The notes beneath the pieces were generated by a model, which saw nothing but the letters and a program-made list of their open reading frames with translations, was not told the origin of the DNA and ran no database searches. Below are positions 2,953-15,337 of a stretch of 64,000 nucleotides of DNA, piece after piece. The DNA lies in assembly GCA_900319235.1 (NCBI GenBank), contig ONNR01000005.1, positions 1 to 64,000 on the forward strand, given 5' to 3'. Numbering within the stretch: position 1 is the first letter of the stretch; every line of letters begins with the position of its first letter. The position numbers were made by a program, and so were the translations under genes. This stretch comes from an uncultured Prevotellaceae bacterium. GTDB lineage: Bacteria > Bacteroidota > Bacteroidia > Bacteroidales > UBA3663.

Positions 2953-3444
2953 TTATGCCAATTCGATGACTTCGAGGTCCTGCACCTTGCCGGCATCGAG
3001 GGCGAAGCGCATGAGGGTGCGGTGGACTTGCGGACCGAAGGTGCCAGCTGCGCCGGGATTGAGCATGAGGGTGGCGAGATGGCGGTCGTACATGGCGCGA
3101 CAGATGTGGCTGTGTCCGCACACGAAGAGGGTGACGGGATGTTGCCGCAATTCGGCGAGGATGTTGCTGGGCCATTTGCCGGGATAGCCTCCGATGTGGG
3201 TCATCCAGACGCTGACGCCCTCGAGCGTGAATCGCTGGTCCTTGGGATAACGAAGGTGCATGTCCTGTCCATCGGCGTTGCCCCAGACGATGCGGCACGT
3301 CTTGCCCGTAGCTTCCAATCGATCGCAGATGGAGATATCGACGACATCGCCGGCGAGCCATATCTCGTCGCAAGCTTCAAAGTGCTTTAGGTAGCGATCG
3401 TCCCACAATCCGTGGGGGTCGCTCATCAGGCCGATAGTTTTCAT
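2953..3444 (-). CDS. YfcE/MJ0936-type metallophosphoesterase
   Basis: The 163-residue protein has the ordered motifs of the small calcineurin-like phosphodiesterases: SDPHG near the N-terminus (usually SDxHG), AGDVVD, GNADG, and the C-terminal pair GHSH and NPGAAG. These supply the two-metal site. The usual THG motif is replaced by THIGGYP, so the site is slightly variant. Length is normal for the family. No signal peptide, so cytoplasmic. It starts 3 bp after the stop of the upstream nuclease gene, so the two are almost certainly co-transcribed. Substrate not predictable; family members hydrolyse artificial phosphodiesters and some cyclic or modified nucleotides. Confidence 0.85.
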   Translation of the reverse strand: MKTIGLMSDPHGLWDDRYLKHFEACDEIWLAGDVVDISICDRLEATGKTCRIVWGNADGQDMHLRYPKDQRFTLEGVSVWMTHIGGYPGKWPSNILAELRQHPVTLFVCGHSHICRAMYDRHLATLMLNPGAAGTFGPQVHRTLMRFALDAGKVQDLEVIELA

Positions 3445-3447
3445 ATA

Positions 3448-4368
3448 TCAATCGTTGCGACGGCGCCAGAAGTTGAAGGTGTCGTCGGCCTCAATCTTGT
3501 CCTCGATGTCATCGGGGAGGTTGTAGAAGAAATCGTGGCCGGTGATGCGCTCGACATCATCGACCGAGTAGGCGTACTGCCAGATGCGGCCCTTGCAGTC
3601 TTCGTTGGGGAAGATGAAGCCAATGGCATGGTAACGGTTGTTCTGTTCGGCGCAGATCACCTTGAAGAAGGACGAGGGTACTGCAATCTTGCTCTTCACC
3701 ATAAGATGGACGTCATCGACGATGGGACCGCAGCATATCCACACCTTGCCATAGCGGCGTGCCCAGGTGCGACTGAGGCTCTCGACCTCCTCCCAAAGCC
3801 CGGCATTGAGTTCCTTGTTCTGTGGACAGATGTTCGAAGTATAGTAACATTCGTTCATGGCATCTTCGTCCCACTTCATGTCGCCTGAAGGAGCCATATG
3901 ACCGCGCGTATATCCCGACTTGGTGTAGTCGTGCGTGGTAATCTTCTTGCCCTCCACAAGAGGGTCGGGCTCGAAATCGCTGTTGCGTTTGCGATAGGGT
4001 GCACGGGTCTCTTCGCGGGTCAGTTCCCAAGCCACCCAGTTAGGCTCGTTCCAGACGTTGTTGTAGGAGACGATGTGGCCGGTGTGCTCGATGATCTGCT
4101 CCCTGGCATCGCTGCGAGTTCCGGCAAGCTCGGTGTTGTCGGCATCAGGATAAGAATGGGTCGGCTTGTCGGCCGGTGCAGTGGTGGGAACAGGGGTCTG
4201 GGCAATGGGAGGTGTACCGCCCTGCTCGGAGGGCTGCTGCATCAGACAGGAGACAAATAACAATGAACAAGGTAAAATTAACAAATAACAATTAACAAAT
4301 AACAATTGAATCGGGAACCGGGGACAATTCTCAATTAACAATCGTGTTATGGAACGGGAGTATTTCAT
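3448..4368 (-). CDS. Secreted DNA/RNA non-specific endonuclease (NUC1 family), probable lipoprotein
   Basis: I start at the ATG ending at 4368 (306 aa) because a good promoter box lies at 4392-4399; the longer frame from 4446 would begin upstream of it. The N-terminus is a hydrophobic signal with a lipobox-like LLFVSC (Cys 41). The nuclease domain has the family signature TRGHMAPSGDM, with His 157 as general base, and a metal-site region TSNICPQN, followed by WEEVE. It would cleave DNA and RNA outside the cytoplasm, for nutrient salvage or defence against free DNA. Odd point: the signal peptide is encoded by a 7-bp tandem repeat (4255-4310), giving a near-heptad repeat LLFVNCY/LLILPCS/LLFVSCL. 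First gene of a unit with the phosphodiesterase. Confidence 0.87.
   Translation of the reverse strand: MKYSRSITRLLIENCPRFPIQLLFVNCYLLILPCSLLFVSCLMQQPSEQGGTPPIAQTPVPTTAPADKPTHSYPDADNTELAGTRSDAREQIIEHTGHIVSYNNVWNEPNWVAWELTREETRAPYRKRNSDFEPDPLVEGKKITTHDYTKSGYTRGHMAPSGDMKWDEDAMNECYYTSNICPQNKELNAGLWEEVESLSRTWARRYGKVWICCGPIVDDVHLMVKSKIAVPSSFFKVICAEQNNRYHAIGFIFPNEDCKGRIWQYAYSVDDVERITGHDFFYNLPDDIEDKIEADDTFNFWRRRND
4255..4310. repeat. Eight 7-bp units (AATTAAC/AAATAAC type) inside a signal-peptide coding region
   Basis: Reading from 4255: AAATAAC, AATGAAC, AAGGTAA, AATTAAC, AAATAAC, AATTAAC, AAATAAC, AATTGAA. The same unit forms an intergenic array at 41919-41953. Here it overlaps the start of the nuclease gene and codes its hydrophobic leader. 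Confidence 0.85.
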
Positions 4369-4391
4369 TGTATTCGGATTGTTTTGCTGTG

Positions 4392-4399
4392 CAAAGATA
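4392..4399 (-). promoter_or_regulatory. Promoter -7 box for the nuclease/phosphodiesterase unit
   Basis: Minus-strand TATCTTTG, an exact match to the Bacteroidetes -7 consensus, 24 bp before the chosen ATG. It faces away from the plus-strand promoter at 4474. Confidence 0.7.
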
Positions 4400-4473
4400 A
4401 GGGAAAAGTTTGGAATAAAAAATTTTTTGAAGGAAAAATAGTGCATTTGTTTTGCGATTTGCCCGAAAATGCC

Positions 4474-4508: not shown

Positions 4509-7500
4509 ATGAGCTTAAAGGTTTATAAGATATCAGATTATAATCATCGAGTTGAAGAAAAGCAGTTTGAATCAATTCGGCAGTTCCTGTCAAAACATTA
4601 TGCTTTTCGCAATGAGGATGCAATACTCATAGGCAATTACAACATTGAGGGTGTCGAACTTGATGCTCTGCTTATTGCACCAGGTGGTTATCGGATCCTT
4701 GAGTTCAAGAATTGGGGTGGCGACATCATTGCACGTGAGAACGGCTCGTGGACTTCCAACGGCAAGATAATTGAGGGCGGCTCAGGAAAAAAGACTCCCT
4801 ATGAGCAAATCCGCCAGAACAAAAGCAGGGTGACCAAAGGGTTGGGTACGCTATTGGGCGCAACTCACGATATGGTCTCGGCAGCCATCATCTTCTGGCA
4901 AAAATCCAACATCGACAAAAGCCAGATATCAAGTACAGTCAGCCTTTGGCTTCATATATTTGATAACCAGCATCTGGAAAACATCCTGGAAGGGATGAAC
5001 AATTCCAGGCTCACCAATGATTTTATTCGTTCCATTCCCGAGAAACTGAAAATCGAGGAATTCGATATCGATAAACAGAAAGTCAGCCAATCTGTCCCAG
5101 ATGAAATTTATGAACCGGAGGCAGCAACCAATTTCTTTGAGGAACTGGAATATGCTTTGCGAAGTGTGCCCGACTACGAATCGGTTTACGATTCATTGAA
5201 CAGGGTATTCCAGATGAGCCTTAATCAGAAAACAGCGGGATCAAGATTGAATCTGGGAGGTACTTTTGCCAAACTTGACTATATTCTGAAAGAGATGCAG
5301 GCTTCCAAGGCTTTGTATCGAGCAATCAATGACACAAGAAATCGCCTAAGGAAACGGGAAGGGTATTCTGAGCTGGAGCTAAAAGACAATTATCTTTATG
5401 ACCTGAAGAACATCTGCAAATTCATTTCCTTTATATACAATGCCGAGATTCCCAAATCGTTGTCGGATGTATTTCCTGCAGATAGGGAAAAGGCTTCAAT
5501 AGGATCGTTGGTAGGAGAATATCTGCGAGTAATTGTTGAACAATGGGATGATGAATATGTGTGGGTACAGACAGAAGAGGATATGGGAGAGGAAACGGTA
5601 AAGGTCTGCTATGCACACAATCGCATCTTCCAGGACACGGATTGGTCTTATCTCAAGGGATTCTTCTATGCAGGAGCACAGTTGAATCTGATTCGTCCTC
5701 GTGTAGAGGAGAATGTCATCTACCCTGAACTTATTATTTTTGAACCTGATTATCTCATAAACATTTCGACGGTAGCACGTTGCTTTACCAATTATGCAGA
5801 TTCTCCTTTTGTAGATCTGATAAAGAAGATAGAGCCTGTAAAATCCAGTCAGGCTATTGAACTTGGTAATTTCGCCGGCCAATTGCTCGATGAGGAAATA
5901 CACCAATTGCCCAATACCCATTCCTATAACCAGAGCGTGAAGGATTTTTTCAAGGGACATGCAATTAACCTCTTGTCGGCAGGAATTGATAAGAATTTCC
6001 ATACGGAAGCACAAAACCAGAAACGCAACATCACCCAAGCCCTGAGAGTGGATCTGCCACCCATGGTATCCCGGTTCAATCCTCGGGAAGGGATGGTCGA
6101 ACCTTCGTTTGTGTCGGAGATGCTTGGACTTCAAGGTCGTATGGATTACCTTCAGCTTGACTATAAGATATTGTTTGAGCAAAAGTCGGGCAAGGGAGCA
6201 TTCCCCTATGACGATTTCATCAAGCCCAGAAGTACGGAGGAGCATTTGATCCAGTTGACGTTGTATATGCTTCTAATCCGTTACAATTATCGCGAGAGGT
6301 ACGAAAAGAACAAGCAGGAATTGCACGCTTTCCTTCTTTATTCAAAATATAAGGAATCCTTGCTGAATGTGGGATTCTATCCTCAGGAAATCTGCAAGGC
6401 CATTCAAGTAAGAAATGGGTTGGCATACGTAGAGAGCCTTTATACGAAGGAGAACGGCTTCCGTATCCTGGAGTCATTGACGCCAGACCTTCTAAATATG
6501 AAGAAAGCCGATAATCCTCTATGGGTAAGGTTCCAGCGTCCCCAGATTGAAGAAGTATTGGCTCCGATGAAAAAGGCCTCAGACCTGGAGAAGGATTATT
6601 TCTTCCGATTCATGACCTTCATAGCCAATGAACAGACATTATCGAAGATAGGCAGCAAGACCAAGGAGAATTCAGGCTTTGCTTCCATCTGGTACGATTC
6701 GCTTGATGAAAAGAAACTCGCCGGCAATATCTATGAAAACCTGACACTTGTCTCCCCTAATGATATTACCCAGGGAAGCATCGAAAAGGTCATTTTATCC
6801 TATTCTGAAACAAAAGAGAATGATATGTCGAACTTCAGAATAGGAGATATTGTCATCCTTTACCCGTATGAAAAGGGGAAGGAACCTGATGCAAGGAAGA
6901 CCATGGTCCTGAAATGCTCGATTGAAGAACGGACTACCGATAAAATTGTTTTGAAACTGAGAGCTCCGCAATCAGATAGTCGTGTATTTCTCCATGAGAA
7001 GGGAAAACTGTGGGCAATAGAGCCTGATTTCATGGAATCCTCGTATAGCTCTCTGTATAAGGGTATGTATGCTTTCCTTTCTGCTCCAAAGACTCGACGT
7101 GATCTCCTGTTGATGCAGAGAGAACCGGAAACTGATGCATCCGTGACATTGAAACTGGATCATGGAAAATTCAATGATCTGGCCCTAAAGGTAAAAGCCG
7201 CCAAGGATTTCTTCCTGATCATAGGTCCTCCCGGCACCGGCAAGACATCCTTTGGCTTGATGACTACCCTCCTGGAAGAACTTGCTGAAGAAGGGACATC
7301 CGTGCTGCTCCTGTCGTACACCAATCGAGCTGTAGATGAGATATGCAGCAAGTTGAAAAAGGAAGGACTGGATTTCATCAGAATAGGAGTTGAGCAATCG
7401 TGTGGCCTTGAATATCGAGATAATCTATTAAGTATCAGAGCCCAAAATTGCCAGAACCTTGACCAACTCAGAGATATCATCCAGAAAGGCAGGATATTTG

Positions 7501-9389
7501 TAGGGACGACGACATCACTCAATGCCAGCATTGCATTGTTCCGTCTGAAGCAATTCTCCCTGGCAATAATCGATGAGGCATCCCAAATACTCGAGCCCCA
7601 TCTTATAGGATTGTTGAGCGCACATAATAACGGCGTGCCCGCTATCCGAAAATTCGTGATGATAGGCGACCACAAGCAGTTGCCAGCTGTCGTTCAGCAG
7701 GAGCCCAAGGTTTCCAGGGTACATAATGTCAAGCTGAACGAGATAGGGCTTATGGATTGCAGACTGTCCCTGTTCGAAAGATTACTCAACAAATATGGCA
7801 GGGACGATAGTACTACCAGAATGCTGACCCAGCAGGGTCGTATGCATCACGAAATCGCCTTGTTCCCTAATTATACATTCTACGAGAATAGGCTTGAAGA
7901 GGTTCCAGGCCTTGACCGGCAACTGGCGAAGCTGCCTTTGGAAGGATCTGGAAGAAATGGTATAGATGACCTGTTGCGCACGAGACGAGTAGTTTTCCTC
8001 GATGCAGAACGTCCTCAGCCGATGGTTTCGGAGAAGGTCAATCTGATTGAGGCAGAAATGATAGCAGCTACTGTCCTAAGGATTCTTGAAATGGAAAAGG
8101 AGGATTTCAATCCTGATAAGACAGTAGGTGTGATTGTGCCTTACCGCAATCAGATAGCTGCCGTGAGGAGTGCGATAGACAATAAGGGAACTGCAGCATT
8201 GCACAATATCACGATTGATACTGTGGAGCGTTATCAGGGTAGCCAGCGCAAGTATATCATTTATGGTTTTACGGTACAGAAATACTATCAGTTGAATTTT
8301 CTTGCCGGCAACTCTTTCGAAGATGACAAAGGCAATATCATTGACCGCAAGCTGAATGTCGCTATGACACGCGCCGAGGAACACTTGATTCTGGTAGGAA
8401 ATTCAGAACTGTTGGCCAACAACTTTACCTTCTTCAAACTCATTGAATTCATCCGCAGCAAGCAAGGATTCTTCAAAATCGGCAAGGATGAATATGTTAC
8501 GGGAAATTTCAAGATTCCCCAATTCCATCCGGAAGAACTGTCAATCAGCGATGCGGTATTTTCGGTGTCACCACTTTTCAAGAAGGCATTTGACAAGCAT
8601 ATCGCAACCCCACTGAAGGAAATGTCAGATGATAATTGGCCTAAACTTGTGATGGGACACGATATGGCGACCAATCTGAATCTGATTGGATATGGCCGCA
8701 TCAACTTCTCGGACCAATTGCAGATTTTTGGAGGTCTTTCGCCTCAGGAACAGGTACTGTTGTATTGTTACTTTATTATGCGTCAGCATTATTGCAGCAG
8801 TTGTAACCTGCTTTCAAGTTACAGGGAGTGGCTGAATGTGCAAATCAAAGGAGTTCACGGCAGAGTTCACTTGATAGATATCGGTTGTGGGCCTGCCACG
8901 AGCGGTGCGGCTTTTGCTGAGCAATTCCTTGATATGGCACCCAATATGGTCTATACGGGAATTGATGTATCGGCATCGATGAAGAATATGGGCAAGTGTC
9001 TCATCGACGAGATGTTTGATGGCAGATTGAACTATCAATGGAAGGAATCCCTCGGGGAACTGAAAAAGGATTTCTGGGAGGGCTGCTCAGAGACCTCTTC
9101 ACTTGTGATATTCAATATGTCGTATTTCTTCTCAAATGTAAAAGCCGAATTTGCAGAAGGACTGGCAAGACAAATCGTCGAAATCATCAAGACGTATAGC
9201 CTGAATAGATATGTTTTCCTTATCCAGCATTCTGAATGTGACCATGACTTGAACTCCTACAAGGTGTTCAGGAGGGTCTTGTCGACTGAAACTCTTGCAA
9301 TTAAAGAAGAAAAGGCATCCTTCTCCTATCGATTGGGATATAAGGAACAGCATTTGCCTTTCTTCTATGATATCCTGACGAATAAATAA
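4509..9389 (+). CDS. NERD / PD-(D/E)XK-like / SF1 helicase / methyltransferase fusion protein
   Basis: 1626 residues. Order: a NERD domain (about 14-115: ELDALLI, ILEFKNWGG, PYEQIRQNK); a weakly conserved middle; a RecB/Cas4-like nuclease core (GRMDYL with Asp 546, then FEQKSGK with Glu 557 and Lys 559, then QLTLYMLL); and a UPF1/Dna2-type superfamily 1 helicase. Helicase motifs: Walker A GPPGTGKTS 906-914, DEAS at 1022, GDHKQLPA, TVERYQGSQRK and AMTRAEEH with Arg 1288. The last ~190 residues are a class I SAM methyltransferase (IDIGCGPA, 1456-1463, then a YTGIDVSASM strand). All key residues are present. No signal peptide; cytoplasmic nucleic-acid processing is inferred. The DUF1848 gene follows after 9 bp. 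The locus is AT-richer than its flanks (one 60-base line in the pair is 35% GC against 53% in tamB), which suggests transfer. I do not know this architecture as a named system; a defence role is inference. Confidence 0.85.
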   Translation: MSLKVYKISDYNHRVEEKQFESIRQFLSKHYAFRNEDAILIGNYNIEGVELDALLIAPGGYRILEFKNWGGDIIARENGSWTSNGKIIEGGSGKKTPYEQIRQNKSRVTKGLGTLLGATHDMVSAAIIFWQKSNIDKSQISSTVSLWLHIFDNQHLENILEGMNNSRLTNDFIRSIPEKLKIEEFDIDKQKVSQSVPDEIYEPEAATNFFEELEYALRSVPDYESVYDSLNRVFQMSLNQKTAGSRLNLGGTFAKLDYILKEMQASKALYRAINDTRNRLRKREGYSELELKDNYLYDLKNICKFISFIYNAEIPKSLSDVFPADREKASIGSLVGEYLRVIVEQWDDEYVWVQTEEDMGEETVKVCYAHNRIFQDTDWSYLKGFFYAGAQLNLIRPRVEENVIYPELIIFEPDYLINISTVARCFTNYADSPFVDLIKKIEPVKSSQAIELGNFAGQLLDEEIHQLPNTHSYNQSVKDFFKGHAINLLSAGIDKNFHTEAQNQKRNITQALRVDLPPMVSRFNPREGMVEPSFVSEMLGLQGRMDYLQLDYKILFEQKSGKGAFPYDDFIKPRSTEEHLIQLTLYMLLIRYNYRERYEKNKQELHAFLLYSKYKESLLNVGFYPQEICKAIQVRNGLAYVESLYTKENGFRILESLTPDLLNMKKADNPLWVRFQRPQIEEVLAPMKKASDLEKDYFFRFMTFIANEQTLSKIGSKTKENSGFASIWYDSLDEKKLAGNIYENLTLVSPNDITQGSIEKVILSYSETKENDMSNFRIGDIVILYPYEKGKEPDARKTMVLKCSIEERTTDKIVLKLRAPQSDSRVFLHEKGKLWAIEPDFMESSYSSLYKGMYAFLSAPKTRRDLLLMQREPETDASVTLKLDHGKFNDLALKVKAAKDFFLIIGPPGTGKTSFGLMTTLLEELAEEGTSVLLLSYTNRAVDEICSKLKKEGLDFIRIGVEQSCGLEYRDNLLSIRAQNCQNLDQLRDIIQKGRIFVGTTTSLNASIALFRLKQFSLAIIDEASQILEPHLIGLLSAHNNGVPAIRKFVMIGDHKQLPAVVQQEPKVSRVHNVKLNEIGLMDCRLSLFERLLNKYGRDDSTTRMLTQQGRMHHEIALFPNYTFYENRLEEVPGLDRQLAKLPLEGSGRNGIDDLLRTRRVVFLDAERPQPMVSEKVNLIEAEMIAATVLRILEMEKEDFNPDKTVGVIVPYRNQIAAVRSAIDNKGTAALHNITIDTVERYQGSQRKYIIYGFTVQKYYQLNFLAGNSFEDDKGNIIDRKLNVAMTRAEEHLILVGNSELLANNFTFFKLIEFIRSKQGFFKIGKDEYVTGNFKIPQFHPEELSISDAVFSVSPLFKKAFDKHIATPLKEMSDDNWPKLVMGHDMATNLNLIGYGRINFSDQLQIFGGLSPQEQVLLYCYFIMRQHYCSSCNLLSSYREWLNVQIKGVHGRVHLIDIGCGPATSGAAFAEQFLDMAPNMVYTGIDVSASMKNMGKCLIDEMFDGRLNYQWKESLGELKKDFWEGCSETSSLVIFNMSYFFSNVKAEFAEGLARQIVEIIKTYSLNRYVFLIQHSECDHDLNSYKVFRRVLSTETLAIKEEKASFSYRLGYKEQHLPFFYDILTNK

Positions 9390-9398
9390 AAGCGGCTT

Positions 9399-10463
9399 AT
9401 GGGATTTTCTTGGCAAAAAGTACCTTTGCAATTGGAGGATTCCGGAGAATGGGTGGAGGCCCAAGCTCCGGAAATCATATCTGCAAGTCGCAGCACCGAC
9501 ATTCCAGCTTTTTATGCCGATTGGTTTTTCGATAGGCTTAAAAAGGGTTATTCGGATTGGATAAATCCGTTCAATGGCAAGAAAAGCTATGTGTCATATC
9601 AGAATACGAGATTCATCGTCTTCTGGTCCAAGAATCCATATCCCTTGCTTAGTCATCTCGACCAATTGAAGGAGATGGGCATAGGCTGTTATATACAGTA
9701 TTCCCTGAATGATTACGAAAACGAGGGACTGGAAAAAAATGTGCCCAACCTGGATTTCAGAATCAATACATTCAAATTGCTAAGTGAGAAACTAGGTTCA
9801 GAAAGTGTGATCTGGCGCTTCGATCCGCTTTTGCTAACAGACGATATTGATATAAATAGCCTGCTGCATAAAATTGAACGTATCGGGAGCCAATTATATG
9901 GCTATACAGAGAAACTCGTTTTCAGTTTTGCTGATATTGCAATTTACAGCAAGGTAAAGCAGAATCTAATTAAAAACGGCATTGAAGCCCGAGAGTGGAC
10001 AGAATCACAAATGAGAGAATTCGCTCAACGATTAAGTGAATTGAATAATAGCAAAGGCTGGAATTATGAACTTGCAACATGTGGTGAGAAGATAGACTTT
10101 GGTGAATTCAATATAAATGCTAATCATTGCATTGACTATAGTCTTATAGCAAGAATAGCCCACGACGACAAACCCCTGTTGAATTACATTGGTGCAACCA
10201 TAAAGACAAGGGAAGCAGATCTGTTTGGAAATTATGAACCTTTGCCTGCAGATGCCATAGAACTGCCAAATGGAAGATATATTATCAGGGATAAAGGCCA
10301 ACGAGATTATTGCGGTTGTATGAAAAGCAAGGATATTGGACAATATAATACCTGCATTCACCAATGCGAATATTGCTATGCAAATACAAGCAAGCAAATG
10401 GCTATGTTGAATTACAATGAATATTTGAAGAATCCCTATAAAGATACAATAATCGGACTTTAG
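9399..10463 (+). CDS. DUF1848 family protein with C-terminal radical-SAM-like cysteine cluster
   Basis: The 354-residue protein matches the DUF1848 family along its length: ISASRSTDIPAFYADWF near the N-terminus, FIVFWSKNP and YIQYSLNDYE, then WRFDPLLLTDDI. The C-terminal CGC...CIHQCEYCYAN contains Cys 305, 307, 319, 323 and 326. The last three form a CX3CX2C motif like that of radical-SAM enzymes, but it sits at the C-terminus instead of the N-terminal part of the fold. An iron-sulfur cluster is expected; the reaction is unknown, and the family has been compared with spore photoproduct lyase-like proteins. It lies 9 bp after the helicase fusion and shares its low GC, so the two very probably form one transcription unit and arrived together. 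Confidence 0.82.
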   Translation: MGFSWQKVPLQLEDSGEWVEAQAPEIISASRSTDIPAFYADWFFDRLKKGYSDWINPFNGKKSYVSYQNTRFIVFWSKNPYPLLSHLDQLKEMGIGCYIQYSLNDYENEGLEKNVPNLDFRINTFKLLSEKLGSESVIWRFDPLLLTDDIDINSLLHKIERIGSQLYGYTEKLVFSFADIAIYSKVKQNLIKNGIEAREWTESQMREFAQRLSELNNSKGWNYELATCGEKIDFGEFNINANHCIDYSLIARIAHDDKPLLNYIGATIKTREADLFGNYEPLPADAIELPNGRYIIRDKGQRDYCGCMKSKDIGQYNTCIHQCEYCYANTSKQMAMLNYNEYLKNPYKDTIIGL

Positions 10464-10537: not shown

Positions 10538-10583
10538 GGTTCAGAAAGGTTCGAATAGTTCGAAGGGTTCGAATAGTTCATGG
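10538..10583 (+). repeat. 9-bp periodic array with TTCGAA core, overlapping the tamB start codon
   Basis: Units GGTTCAGAAA (10 bp), GGTTCGAAT, AGTTCGAAG, GGTTCGAAT, AGTTCATGG. The start codon of tamB is inside the last unit. The same unit, inverted, forms the array at 62222-62266. Confidence 0.85.
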
Positions 10584-13500
10584 AAGAACAGAAGGAACAG
10601 ATAACACAACCTGAGAAAAAGAAGTCGGGGATAGGGCGCGTGATACGCGTCGCTATCGTTGCGCTGTTGCTGCTCCTTGTCGGTTTGCCTCTATCGCTCT
10701 ACATTCCGCCGGTGCAGGATGTGGTGTGCCGTGCTGTGGTGTCGTATCTGAACAGGTCGAGCGAAGACCTGGAATACAAGGTGGGGAAGGTGCGCATCGG
10801 TTTCCCGCTTAAACTTAAGGTAAAGGATGTGGACGTGCTGAAACGCAAGGATGGCACAACGCTGGTCCATGTGGGCGAACTCTCGACAGGCCTTGATGAC
10901 ATCCCTATCAGCCAACCCTTCTTTGTGCTGGGCAAAGTTCACGTTGAAGATGTTGTGATAGGTATGGATTCACTCACCGAATCGTTTGGCATGTCAGGAA
11001 CGTTGAAGAGCCTTGATGCCGAACGTTTGGAACTTGACCTTGCCAACAATCAAGTCAGACTGAAAGAGGGGGCTTTGGACAGCCCCGATGTGCGACTCTA
11101 TCTGGGACCATCGCAACCCGACAGCATCGACGAGGAAAGCAGCGGATGGCACGTCACGGTAGGTAAAGTGGCGGTGAAGGACGGTCGTGTAGGTCTTGAC
11201 ATGAGTGACGAGAGCCTTGCTGAAGCATTGGCCAGCGTCAGCACATCGCCTTATCTCGACTACAATCATCTGCTGGTTTCAGGCATCGACCTCGAAGCCG
11301 AAAACATCGCCTATTCGCCCGATGCCATTCATGCCGATGTCAAGTACCTCAAGGCACGCGAGGAGAACAGTGGCCTGGAGGTGACCCGACTGGCTGCCAA
11401 TTTCAACATGGAGGATGATCTCATCACTTTGCATGAAGTCGATCTGGGATTGGGGAATGACGATTATCTGCAAGGCGATGCCGAGCTGCATCTGGGCATG
11501 CTCGACTCCATCCGTACAGGATACGTCGATGCCGACCTTGTGGCTCAAATAGATTCGGCCAACCTCTGTCGGTTGGCAGCGCCTTATCTGCCCGGACTGC
11601 AGAAGCACTGGGTAAATGAGCGCGCTTCACTTGTACTGAAGGGACGTGTTACACCCGATTCGCTCGACCTGCATCAACTGACCCTGCAGATGCCCCGACA
11701 TATCGACGTGACTGCCGATGCCGTGGGAACCTCTATTTTCGACAACCAGCAAAGACAGGCTGCAGCCACCATCAAGGGTTCGCTTCGCGATGCCGACTTC
11801 CTCCTTTCGACATTTGTCGATGAACCCAAGAACCGCTCGTATCGACTCCCCGTTGACCTTGGTCTTGACCTCGAAGGTTCGCAACGCGGACGCCGATTTA
11901 CGGCGCGTGCCGATGTGCAGCATCGAGGACACGACATCGTCAGGGCTGACGGTAATTACGATCTGGTCACAGAGGCCTATCACCTCGATGCGAAGACTTG
12001 GGGGCTCAATGTCAGCGAGTTTGTGCCTGGAGTCATAGCCGACCGTATGACTGCTACAGCCTTGGCTGATGGACGCCACCTCGACTTCCCTGGCAAGCGC
12101 ACACGCCTCGATGCCAAGGTGCAGATTGATACGCTCCACTTTGTGGACAATACGGGACGGCACGACAGCATCACCGGACTGTCGGCCGAAGCATCGATGC
12201 TGAACGGCAACTATGTCGCCGATATCCATTCGACTCATCGCCGATTGGCGCTCGATACGCATCTGGAAGGCATTTTCCTCAAGGACACCATTTCGACCAA
12301 GGGATATATCAATCTGCCCGACATCGACCTTGCCAACCTGCCTTTCGGCCTGGCACGTCCTGACCTTGGTAAGATAAAACTGAACAGTACCGTCGAAGGC
12401 TATTACGACTGGGGCGAGAATGCACATCTGGAACTGAGAATCGATTCGGTGAACTATGAGGATGCCACCCGATCGGATCACTTCAAGGACATTATCATCG
12501 GCCTTAATTCCAGCCCCGGCATGATGGATATCAGCCTGACGGGAGGAGATGCCAACGTGATGATGTGTACCGACCGAAGTATCCAGGACTTGCCTGCCAT
12601 TGTCGATACACTGATGGTGGAGGTGAACCGGCAACTGGATGGATATATGTTCGATTTCAACGCACTCGTCTCTAAGGTGCCCCAGTTGTCGGTCGACCTG
12701 CATATGGCGCAGAACAACCCGTTCTACGATCCCATCGTCTATCACACAGGCTATGAGTTCAGCAGCATAGACGTTATGGCTCTCAATGCCTATCGATTCT
12801 CGCTCGATGGCACGATCGTGAACCTTGTGGAACAGACGGGCAGTGTCGATTTCGACACCATCGCCATTTCTGTTCAGCCTTGCAGACAGGACGTCCAGCG
12901 GGATGCCTACGAGTACGCCGTGCATGCCATGCACATTGACCCCAGGGCTTCGAAGACCTACGATATCCACCTGAACGGCAAGTTCATGCCCGACAGCCTA
13001 ACAGCCGGCATCACCTATATCAATGGTAACTACCTGACCCTTTACGATGCCGAGGCCTCGTTGGCAATTGCCGACGACAGCGTGACACTGCATCTGGAGA
13101 AGGATCCCATCATCTACGAACAACTGTTCGCGGTGAACAAGGACAATTACCTAAGTGTGATGCACTACAAGGACCTGGAGGTACGCAAGCCCAACACCAA
13201 AGCACGCATCATCCTCGATGGACCACGTGGGCTGAATGTGCGTCTTTATACCCGCCAGGATACACGCAAGGCCGATGGCAACCAATTGTTGCTCCTCGTG
13301 CGTAACCTCGACCTTGCCTACACGACAAAACTGATGCAATGGGAGGGTGGCGATGCCGGCGGCAACTTCTCGCTCACGGCTATGGTCAATCTCTATCCCG
13401 ACAGTCTGGGCGCCCGTTTGCGTTCGGGCATCAAGACGTTCCACCTGGGCGATTACCGTGCCGACACGTTGTCGTTCGACGGCAATTTCGCGATGGCAAA

Positions 13501-15337
13501 GAATCGTCGCGATGCCGACGGCATACTCATGGTTGACAGCATCGTGAAGCTGAAGGTAGATGCCCGATTGGCCGACAGCGTCAATGTGATGGCAAGAATC
13601 GACGAGTTCCCTCTGCCCCTGGTCAATACCTTCCTGCCCAGCAACATCAACCTTTGGGGCAACACCACCGGACGACTGACTATGCTTGGCAGGGACTTTG
13701 ACAATGCAAAGGTGAATGCCCACCTGACGATGCATGAGGCCGGAGTCATTTATGACGATCTGGATGCCCAACTGAAGTTCTGCGAAGACACGCTTCGCCT
13801 GGTCAACAATCGTCTTGCCTTCAACAACTACAAGATTTTTGGTGCCAACGCCAATCCCATCAACGTGCGTGGAGAGGTTGATCTCAGCAAGCAGGTGAGC
13901 AATCCGGGCATCACCCTCAATCTTACGGGTGACAGAGTAAGACTAATCGACAACAACAAGTTGCGCCTCAGGGACCAGTATATCACTGGACGACTCCTCA
14001 TCAGTCCGATTATTCGTGTGCGCGGCACGCTCAACAGACTTGACGTCAGTGGCTCGCTGCGTGTGCATTCGGGTACTAACCTTAGTTACTACATGTCGGA
14101 CGATCCATTGTCGGAAAACAGCAGGATTGACGACATCGTCGAATTTGTCAACTTCCGTCAGCAGGACCGTGAGATGGCCATGGCAGGTATGCGTCGCCGT
14201 CAACCGCTGCAGGACCAGGCCGACGAAGGTATGAAGGTGCGTCTCGGCATCGATATAGACAAGGATATGAAGGTCACGGCTTTTCTTGACCAGGAGAACA
14301 ACAAGGTTGACATCGTGGGCGGTGGCAGCCTCAATCTGCAGACCGACAATCAGGGAGAGTTCATTATGAACGGTACCTACGACATCATCAGTGGAAAGGT
14401 GGACTACAAGTTGCCGATTCTGCCGATGGTCAAGACTTTTGACATCAACAGTTCGAGTCTCGTCAATTGGACCGGCAGCGAGCCGAGCGATCCAGAAATC
14501 AACATCGTGGCTTCGGAGGAAGTGAAGGCCACTGTCAATACTGACAACAAGACGAGCCTGGTTAACTTCATCGTTACCATTGCCATCACCGGCACGCTTG
14601 AGAACCTTCATATCACCTTCGACTGCAGCGCTGCCAACAACAGCACCATCAATTCAGGCATCGCATCACTTGACGATGACGAGCGTTCGAAGGTAGCCCT
14701 TATCCTCTTGATTTCGCAGACCTATACGGGTCCGGGAAGCAGCAGTTCGGCAGGTCTTGGCGTTGCCAATGCCGCACTTTCATCGATGATCAACCGCCAG
14801 TTGGAGTCGCTCATCGGCAATATGAAGGGCACGACTATCGACATCGGTGTCGATATGTACAATACCGAGACTGGTGGAGCACGCACCGATTATTCGGTGA
14901 AGGTGACCAAGACACTTTTCAATGAACGTGTGCGAGCCTCCATCGGAGGACAAATGAGCAGCGGCGGAGATGTCAACCGTAACAATGGCGCACAACTTGG
15001 TGATATGTCGCTCGAATACCTGATCAAGAAGGATGGTTCGCACTACATCAAGGTCTATCGTCGGACCAATTATGAGTCGGTACTCGAAGGCGAGGTCGTT
15101 GAGGCAGGTGCCAGTTACATCCAGGAACGTTCGGGCTATCGCTTCAAGCAACTCCTGCTTCCTAACAGTCGCAAGCGCCAGGCCCGCATCGAAGAACACC
15201 TCCGTCAACTCCGTCTGCAGGAAGAAGAGGAGGAGAACAACGAAACTCCAGCCGACACCGACGACCCCCAAGCCATTTCAAAAGAATCCCCAGCCATCAC
15301 AAACGAAAACAATGAAGCAGAAAAGAAGTCAGAATAG
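10580..15337 (+). CDS. tamB: TamB-like envelope transport protein (DUF490)
   Basis: The 1585-residue protein has a short cytoplasmic N-terminus, a single membrane anchor (about residues 19-42), and then a very long stretch of beta-strand repeats typical of AsmA/TamB bridge proteins, ending in the conserved DUF490 region (about residues 1100-1480: INVRGEVDLS, FIMNGTYDIISGKVDYKLP, SDPEINIVASEEV). TamB-type proteins span the periplasm and are thought to move lipids or help barrel assembly together with the outer-membrane partner TamA. That partner follows directly: the tamA start lies 26 bp inside the end of this gene, so translation is probably coupled. The C-terminal tail is charged and Glu-rich. 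Length is typical for Bacteroidales TamB. Confidence 0.9.
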   Translation: MEEQKEQITQPEKKKSGIGRVIRVAIVALLLLLVGLPLSLYIPPVQDVVCRAVVSYLNRSSEDLEYKVGKVRIGFPLKLKVKDVDVLKRKDGTTLVHVGELSTGLDDIPISQPFFVLGKVHVEDVVIGMDSLTESFGMSGTLKSLDAERLELDLANNQVRLKEGALDSPDVRLYLGPSQPDSIDEESSGWHVTVGKVAVKDGRVGLDMSDESLAEALASVSTSPYLDYNHLLVSGIDLEAENIAYSPDAIHADVKYLKAREENSGLEVTRLAANFNMEDDLITLHEVDLGLGNDDYLQGDAELHLGMLDSIRTGYVDADLVAQIDSANLCRLAAPYLPGLQKHWVNERASLVLKGRVTPDSLDLHQLTLQMPRHIDVTADAVGTSIFDNQQRQAAATIKGSLRDADFLLSTFVDEPKNRSYRLPVDLGLDLEGSQRGRRFTARADVQHRGHDIVRADGNYDLVTEAYHLDAKTWGLNVSEFVPGVIADRMTATALADGRHLDFPGKRTRLDAKVQIDTLHFVDNTGRHDSITGLSAEASMLNGNYVADIHSTHRRLALDTHLEGIFLKDTISTKGYINLPDIDLANLPFGLARPDLGKIKLNSTVEGYYDWGENAHLELRIDSVNYEDATRSDHFKDIIIGLNSSPGMMDISLTGGDANVMMCTDRSIQDLPAIVDTLMVEVNRQLDGYMFDFNALVSKVPQLSVDLHMAQNNPFYDPIVYHTGYEFSSIDVMALNAYRFSLDGTIVNLVEQTGSVDFDTIAISVQPCRQDVQRDAYEYAVHAMHIDPRASKTYDIHLNGKFMPDSLTAGITYINGNYLTLYDAEASLAIADDSVTLHLEKDPIIYEQLFAVNKDNYLSVMHYKDLEVRKPNTKARIILDGPRGLNVRLYTRQDTRKADGNQLLLLVRNLDLAYTTKLMQWEGGDAGGNFSLTAMVNLYPDSLGARLRSGIKTFHLGDYRADTLSFDGNFAMAKNRRDADGILMVDSIVKLKVDARLADSVNVMARIDEFPLPLVNTFLPSNINLWGNTTGRLTMLGRDFDNAKVNAHLTMHEAGVIYDDLDAQLKFCEDTLRLVNNRLAFNNYKIFGANANPINVRGEVDLSKQVSNPGITLNLTGDRVRLIDNNKLRLRDQYITGRLLISPIIRVRGTLNRLDVSGSLRVHSGTNLSYYMSDDPLSENSRIDDIVEFVNFRQQDREMAMAGMRRRQPLQDQADEGMKVRLGIDIDKDMKVTAFLDQENNKVDIVGGGSLNLQTDNQGEFIMNGTYDIISGKVDYKLPILPMVKTFDINSSSLVNWTGSEPSDPEINIVASEEVKATVNTDNKTSLVNFIVTIAITGTLENLHITFDCSAANNSTINSGIASLDDDERSKVALILLISQTYTGPGSSSSAGLGVANAALSSMINRQLESLIGNMKGTTIDIGVDMYNTETGGARTDYSVKVTKTLFNERVRASIGGQMSSGGDVNRNNGAQLGDMSLEYLIKKDGSHYIKVYRRTNYESVLEGEVVEAGASYIQERSGYRFKQLLLPNSRKRQARIEEHLRQLRLQEEEEENNETPADTDDPQAISKESPAITNENNEAEKKSE

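Follow-up and report, generated by a model that had tools for sequence, protein, structure and literature searches.

The window is the whole stretch of DNA analysed here, 64,000 nucleotides from an uncultured Prevotellaceae bacterium (contig ONNR01000005.1, positions 1 to 64,000). Near its left end two genes lie directly next to each other on the plus strand, a large fused gene and, starting 9 bases downstream of it, a gene for a DUF1848 protein. The following features were assigned:

4509..9389, plus strand: fused gene, NERD - DNA2-like nuclease-helicase - class I methyltransferase (MTase), 1626 aa; same architecture in genome G442 (1650 aa)
4509..5093, plus strand: NERD nuclease domain, aa 1-195, D and E-x-K motif intact (Pfam, PADLOC, relatives)
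5106..8513, plus strand: DNA2-like core, aa 200-1335 (family alignment; hmmsearch to mouse DNA2)
6099..6269, plus strand: RecB/Cas4/DNA2-type nuclease motifs E531, GRxD546, E557-x-K559 and Q-x3-Y, aa 531-587 (alignment)
7224..8375, plus strand: SF1B (UPF1/DNA2-like) helicase motifs I-VI, aa 906-1289 (Pfam, alignment)
8514..9386, plus strand: class I SAM MTase domain, aa 1336-1626, motif I intact (library profiles)
9399..10463, plus strand: DUF1848 gene, 354 aa, predicted radical-SAM-like, CX3CX2C at C319/C323/C326 (Pfam DUF1848 4e-90; AF2 model)

The frame of the fused gene runs uninterrupted from the ATG at 4509 to the stop at 9389. A preliminary description of this DNA had read the product as NERD, a second nuclease, a UPF1/DNA2-like helicase and an MTase, with all key motifs intact in one frame of 1626 residues. 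Profiles and the family alignment uphold this domain reading, and each motif was found in place: VELDALLI (residues 49-56) and EFKNW (65-69) in NERD; GLQGRMD (540-546) and EQKSGK (557-562), containing D546, E557 and K559, in the second nuclease; Walker A (906-913), IIDEASQ (1020-1026) and NVAMTRA (1283-1289) in the helicase; and LIDIGCGPAT (1455-1464) as motif I of the MTase. The architecture is no assembly artefact, since the independent genome G442 has all three parts at 58-60% identity. In the source genome, an 86%-complete draft assembly, the fused gene is present in single copy. Two further matches belong to one other locus of 31-39% identity, which is a general helicase paralogue. The fused gene had also been described as lying in an AT-rich island. 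Indeed, the fused gene has a GC3 of 0.50 and the DUF1848 gene one of 0.40, compared to 0.65 in the flanking genes and 0.68-0.71 in the plain gene of genus-mates at the same locus. On the minus strand, the genes at positions 1-2913 of the window encode secreted proteins in which ricin-B-like segments (DGVYYIKCAGDPNYVI...) are repeated and Ser-Thr linkers of low complexity occur; in antisense the reading is VDVDVD.

Judged by its alignments, the middle of the fused protein is a bacterial DNA2-like nuclease-helicase. The helicase was detected by Pfam with AAA_12 (E 1.7e-31) and AAA_11 (E 1.5e-23). The second nuclease is marginal in Pfam as a single sequence (PDDEXK_1, E 0.055); it is secured by its motif residues, which align to DNA2 and are invariant in 28 relatives. 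In core numbering (add 199 for the residue of the fused protein) these are E332, G344-R345-x-D347, E358-x-K360 and Q383-x3-Y387, and the helicase motifs are also conserved in this 28-sequence alignment. By hmmsearch, the core profile matched mouse DNA2 with an E value of 4e-75, core 212-1121 lying collinearly on DNA2 117-1042, and it scored higher against DNA2 than against UPF1, SEN1 or SMUBP2. Eukaryotic DNA2 thus shares the order of nuclease and SF1B helicase as well as the aligned E, GxxD, ExK and QxxxY residues over 910 positions. It differs in having a four-cysteine Fe-S cluster around the nuclease, with three of the cysteines after QxxxY. No conserved cysteine was found at the place of its C-x2-C-x5-C in the core family alignment, and ahead of the nuclease only C226 (core) is widely conserved. 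Because the Fe-S cysteines are not conserved, the core is called DNA2-like and not DNA2 in the strict sense. The window protein is furthermore bacterial and, unlike eukaryotic DNA2, comes with an extra NERD, an MTase and a partner gene.

Most relatives match residues ~200-1335 only and carry neither NERD nor MTase. They are free-standing proteins, mostly of 1000-1170 aa, and occur in many Bacteroidota. Of the 393 genomes sampled from the order, 47 had the core, as did 13 of the window's 14 genus-mates. In the family that probably contains Bacteroides it was present in 101 of 121 genomes, covering 26 of 30 genera, with one gene per genome (two core matches in one genome were pieces of a single gene). 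Bacteroides was placed in this family through locus L052 of B. finegoldii, which groups with the f60 genomes and has the neighbours on the tatC side in common with them. Since nearly all genomes of the Bacteroidaceae-like family and of the window's genus have it, the plain core looks like a housekeeping gene. We noticed that in Bacteroides/Phocaeicola-type genomes (L051, L052, L078, L079) it lies at a conserved locus of housekeeping-like context, with a MurF/alanine racemase gene upstream; in B. finegoldii L052, where this gene is annotated, tatA-tatC lie between the two. In L089 and L092, from two distant families, a second, smaller UPF1-like helicase (~600 aa) directly adjoins the DNA2-like gene. 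Viral contigs searched for the core gave no close relative and generic helicases only, phage records gave two weak helicase matches, and a literature search for bacterial DNA2 found no report.

The two ends of the fused protein are additions to this family. NERD was detected by Pfam at aa 25-112 (E 1e-8, 36.1 bits against a cut-off of 22.1) and by the N-terminus of the PADLOC profile PDC-M16A (97.6 bits). It is 60-62% identical to the NERD of G442 and G481, and the motif is kept in both. The window MTase is weak in Pfam as a single sequence (E 0.006-0.02, below cut-off). The PADLOC methyltransferase profile C3a159 matched all four intact fused MTases (window 4.4e-12, best 8.5e-19), Pfam Methyltransf_31 likewise matched all four (best 1.4e-5, the window itself being below the Pfam cut-off), and Rsm22 matched two of the four (best 4.3e-5). 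With motif I intact and C3a159 recovered in every one of these relatives, the earlier assignment of the C-terminal part to the methyltransferases stands. An AF2 model of the MTase, made from the single sequence without relatives, reached a pLDDT of 47.5, too low for a judgement of the fold, and gave no significant structural match in a fold search. The search of viral contigs with the window MTase also returned generic helicases only and no close relative.

Besides the complete NERD-core-MTase of G442, partial versions were found. G481 encodes NERD-core, interrupted by a contig end, and G464 encodes core-MTase, lacking both NERD and DUF1848. Core-MTase was also found in four genomes of one genus (G270, G439, G495, G510) and in G736 from another order of the class. 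Motif I is degenerate in the four-genome group and intact in the other fused MTases. Of the DNA2-MTase fusions with degenerate motif I at L071, L128, L129 and L130, three are directly followed by a short-chain dehydrogenase-like gene; the degenerate motif suggests that the MTase is dead or repurposed.

Five genus-mates (G003, G004, G006, G007, G011) carry a core-only gene at the locus of the fused gene. There it adjoins TamB (10580-15337 in the window); on the opposite side, where the contigs of the mates reach, come the genes for the endonuclease (3448-4446) and the phosphodiesterase (2953-3444). The flanking genes of window and genus-mates are 80-96% identical (TamB 78-85%), whereas the cores share ~50%. 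At the DNA level, similarity ends ~18 bases ahead of the start codon and is regained either within the intergenic region or where TamB starts. In the core tree, the window groups with G464, G442 and G481 (support 98), the Bacteroidaceae carriers of NERD or MTase, and a grouping with the same-locus genus-mates was rejected (AU test, p 0.00045). The contrast between flanks and core, GC3 and the tree together show that a foreign cassette displaced the resident gene, and since the genome (an incomplete assembly) has no second core copy, this was a replacement and not an addition. Hence, a horizontally acquired two-gene cassette took the place of a plain DNA2-like gene. Vertical descent of a local gene to which domains were added had also been considered, and was ruled out by flank and core identities, GC3 and the AU test.

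The same cassette is found in G442, a genome of another family, where 4 bases separate the fused gene from the start of a DUF1848 gene that is 57% identical. Both genes are 57-60% identical throughout between window and G442. The neighbours are unrelated to those of the window, with a pectinase/glycosidase-like pair upstream, and the GC3 of the fused gene (0.35) and of DUF1848 (0.30) is again below that of the flanks (~0.61). The conserved unit therefore consists of two genes. In this respect the preliminary description, which saw a self-contained machine on one chain, has to be corrected: the unit includes DUF1848, and NERD and MTase were added to a separate, widespread DNA2-like family. It had also held that its reading would be refuted by homologues occurring throughout the Bacteroidales at one and the same locus. 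The plain core does lie at this locus in the five genus-mates, whereas the version with three domains is rare, has a foreign composition and is elsewhere placed between unrelated neighbours.

DUF1848 itself is rare in the genus and was found among 15 genomes only in the window genome and in G010. The cysteines C319, C323 and C326 (CX3CX2C) are invariant among 30 and 27 relatives in two alignments, and C228, C244, C305 and C307 are invariant as well. An AF2 model of high confidence (pLDDT 90, pTM 0.90) was compared with known structures by VIA-align. The top 19 rows were all radical-SAM enzymes with Z scores of 7.6-9.1, among them Elp3 (9.1), SuiB (9.1), spore photoproduct lyase (8.8) and biotin synthase (8.7), and also NifB, PFL activase and Cfr; other barrels scored at most 7.5. 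Foldseek alone gave no significant match with this model, no match to PDB sequences was obtained, and Pfam Radical_SAM reached an E value of 0.06 only. The cysteine loop is located C-terminally, behind the barrel and not at its beginning, and we therefore propose that DUF1848 adopts a circularly permuted radical-SAM fold. The protein also matches the PADLOC profile RTasDUF1848. A literature search found no mention of DUF1848, C3a159 or C3a187.

DUF1848 neighbourhoods were gathered from Bacteroidales genomes and viral contigs. A class I MTase, always on the same strand, was found nearby in 20 of 50 loci with at least 45% identity to the DUF1848 of the window and in none of 42 more distant ones (Fisher, 8e-7; the test compares clades, kinship is uncorrected and the profiles stem partly from the same loci). 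In the remaining 30 of the 50 close loci, no neighbouring gene encodes an MTase of these families. Several forms of the linkage were distinguished. In the first, MTase, UvrD-like helicase and a 700-800-aa protein accompany DUF1848 (L161, L207, L218, L222, L248). L161 stems from G010, the sole genus-mate of the window without a detectable DNA2-like core; there the order is MTase (475 aa), UvrD-like helicase (354 aa), an 800-aa protein and DUF1848, beside a Fic gene. In the second, MTase, NERD and UvrD form a single chain of 780-837 aa next to DUF1848 (L164, L229, L238, L239). These fusions reached a comparable set of domains independently; the window NERD is not measurably close to theirs. The third form has a Sel1-repeat MTase, with or without a UvrD-like helicase and a 2CompART protein of ADP-ribosyltransferase type (L210, L212, L230, L216, L211, L234, L235, L244); in L210, L212 and L230, DUF1848 adjoins the helicase, the 2CompART protein and the MTase. 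The NERD-DNA2-MTase protein with DUF1848, in the window and G442, is the fourth. Across these operons the MTases are related to that of the window at superfamily level only. DUF1848 homologues were also frequent in IMG/VR contigs (54 loci, L238-L291), with MTase-NERD-UvrD alongside in L238 and L239, so that phages or prophages may carry such modules.

A search with the MTase family of the window showed that it also occurs as a separate protein of 486-498 aa in other Bacteroidia. Here the order is UvrD-like helicase, a 600-700-aa protein, MTase and AlkB (G853, G908, G530), or MTase and AlkB only (G1006, G862), and in G736 a DNA2-MTase fusion is followed by an overlapping AlkB gene (Pfam 2OG-FeII_Oxy_2, 7.6e-24). 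The compact four-gene operon with the AlkB dioxygenase was seen in several Bacteroidia (L301, L302, L303, L304); in L301, which was tested, no PADLOC family matched the 600/700-aa protein or the AlkB gene. AlkB and DUF1848 operons share one family of UvrD-like helicases (HMM, E 3e-67). Homology between the 600-700-aa protein of the former and the 700-800-aa protein of the latter was not supported (hhalign probability 1.7).

The linkage of MTase, helicase and DUF1848 or AlkB is thus recurrent. DUF1848 and AlkB therefore look, from these gene orders, like alternative partners of an MTase/helicase pair. Because relatives of DUF1848 and of the MTase recur in such operons, the window cassette can be regarded as the fused variant of an unnamed modular system. 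This system looks to consist of an SF1 helicase or nuclease-helicase, an MTase and DUF1848 or AlkB. In its other versions a compact UvrD-like helicase, a class I MTase and DUF1848 or AlkB are mostly encoded by separate genes.

No match to a named system had been seen before, and comparison with Mokosh, Nhi and PLuB leaves the cassette outside all three. In Mokosh, MkoA (4e-51) and MkoC (1e-23) match the SF1 helicase region of the window protein, but this match is confined to aa 980-1313, the remainder of MkoA is unmatched and no MkoB-like partner is present, while the window system carries NERD, MTase and DUF1848. Nhi also joins a nuclease and an SF1 helicase on one chain; the window protein is however much larger and DNA2-like instead of UvrD-like. 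Of the 27 PADLOC families recovered with an E value of at most 1, the best 25 do not include Nhi, and the other two are weaker than E 0.03. The PLuB helicase-like protein (NCBIfam NF040671) aligns with the helicase half over 520 residues, but with 188.5 bits it stays far below the cut-off of 999, and a literature search found no description of a PLuB system. Closer in content are PADLOC profiles of type III CRISPR-linked or phage-defence candidates: C3a159 resembles the MTase, the N-terminus of PDC-M16A resembles NERD, RTasDUF1848 resembles DUF1848, and related loci match C3a187 (NERD+UvrD). These are single-gene profiles with no mechanism described, and the window helicase is DNA2-like, not UvrD. 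Neither CRISPR nor a reverse transcriptase was noticed next to the two genes of the window.

The following mechanism is proposed as the most likely. The helicase would load on invading or aberrant nucleic acid, unwind it and hand one of the strands over to the nuclease of DNA2 type, and NERD might serve as a second cutter. MTase and the radical-SAM (or AlkB) enzyme might place a modification on bases or ends, or take one away, and this modification could distinguish self from non-self or shield host nucleic acid. Loading, unwinding and strand feeding are what would be expected by analogy with the DNA2-like family. The methyl mark and the radical-SAM or dioxygenase step are derived purely from the predicted chemistry, while the action on invaders, the order of steps and the marking of self by modification are what we infer. 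A role in mobile immunity against phages and plasmids, of restriction or modification type, has in our estimate an even chance. Its grounds are the foreign and patchy cassette, the presence of two nucleases and an MTase, and the relation of each part to a phage-defence candidate profile. In a rough test, PADLOC families near MTase-linked DUF1848 loci and near plain cores gave scattered matches in both sets and were not clearly commoner near the DUF1848 loci than near the plain cores. In the plain-core control most were generic ATPases and helicases, whereas the DUF1848 set had matches to Fic, type I MTase and candidate families.

In the main rival reading, the same genes would instead constitute an upgraded repair gene. 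The fused protein would then keep a DNA2-like role in end resection or in the processing of flaps and stalled forks, and MTase and DUF1848 (AlkB in relatives) would reverse or cap damaged bases or ends. Since it replaces a near-universal plain core, the fused version presumably still does the job of that core, which is single-copy and near-universal in family and genus. In eukaryotes DNA2 works in repair and replication, AlkB acts by direct reversal, and the DUF1848 model resembles spore photoproduct lyase among other radical-SAM enzymes. Against this reading stand the foreign composition and patchy distribution of the cassette; two nucleases with an MTase are also commoner in conflict systems, and the parts match phage-defence candidates. 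On balance we think a repair unit somewhat unlikely.

An RNA-directed function would have the MTase, DUF1848 and AlkB set modify tRNA or rRNA and the helicase-nuclease act on RNA or RNA-DNA hybrids, for instance in tRNA protection during phage conflict. Elp3, a radical-SAM enzyme, the MTase Trm9 and ALKBH8, which combines AlkB and MTase, are the analogues behind this idea. Elp3 is a joint top structural match of DUF1848 (Z 9.1), yet likeness of the radical-SAM barrel is uninformative on substrate. The Rsm22-type rRNA MTase profile matches two of the four fused MTases, MTase-AlkB pairs exist, and the UPF1 clade includes RNA helicases; by score, however, the core is nearer DNA2 than UPF1, SEN1 or SMUBP2, and a nuclease of this type is normally a DNase. 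We regard this function as distinctly improbable. A selfish or neutral passenger, in which NERD, MTase and DUF1848 spread by homologous recombination through the conserved core without a selected function, would fit the allele-like replacement with boundaries close to the gene ends and relatives with a degenerate MTase motif I (g175 genomes) or without NERD and DUF1848 (G464), but is very unlikely, as carriers ~60% identical to one another keep the catalytic motifs of every part intact and the MTase-helicase-DUF1848/AlkB linkage recurs across several architectures.

The reading as a whole, in which an acquired two-gene cassette is the fused variant of an unnamed modular system and acts by the proposed mechanism, may be right or wrong with about equal probability. 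The broader set of MTase, helicase and DUF1848 or AlkB may be categorically new. More tentatively, and with a doubtful rather than a good chance of being correct, it might represent an undescribed modular class in which an MTase and either a permuted radical-SAM DUF1848 or AlkB, being interchangeable, write, rewrite or erase a nucleic-acid mark and are coupled to SF1 helicases or nuclease-helicases; here the whole set would have been added to a DNA2-like protein, which took the place of the host's housekeeping copy.

The analysis brings to light a widespread family of bacterial DNA2-like proteins and shows an apparent housekeeping nuclease-helicase displaced by a foreign, enlarged version. DUF1848 gains a testable chemistry, that of radical SAM, and a partner, an MTase coupled to a nuclease-helicase. 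The interchange of DUF1848 and AlkB beside like MTases and helicases suggests a common substrate. If they do share one, the unnamed defence-candidate profiles C3a159, C3a187, PDC-M16A and RTasDUF1848 would become experimentally tractable.
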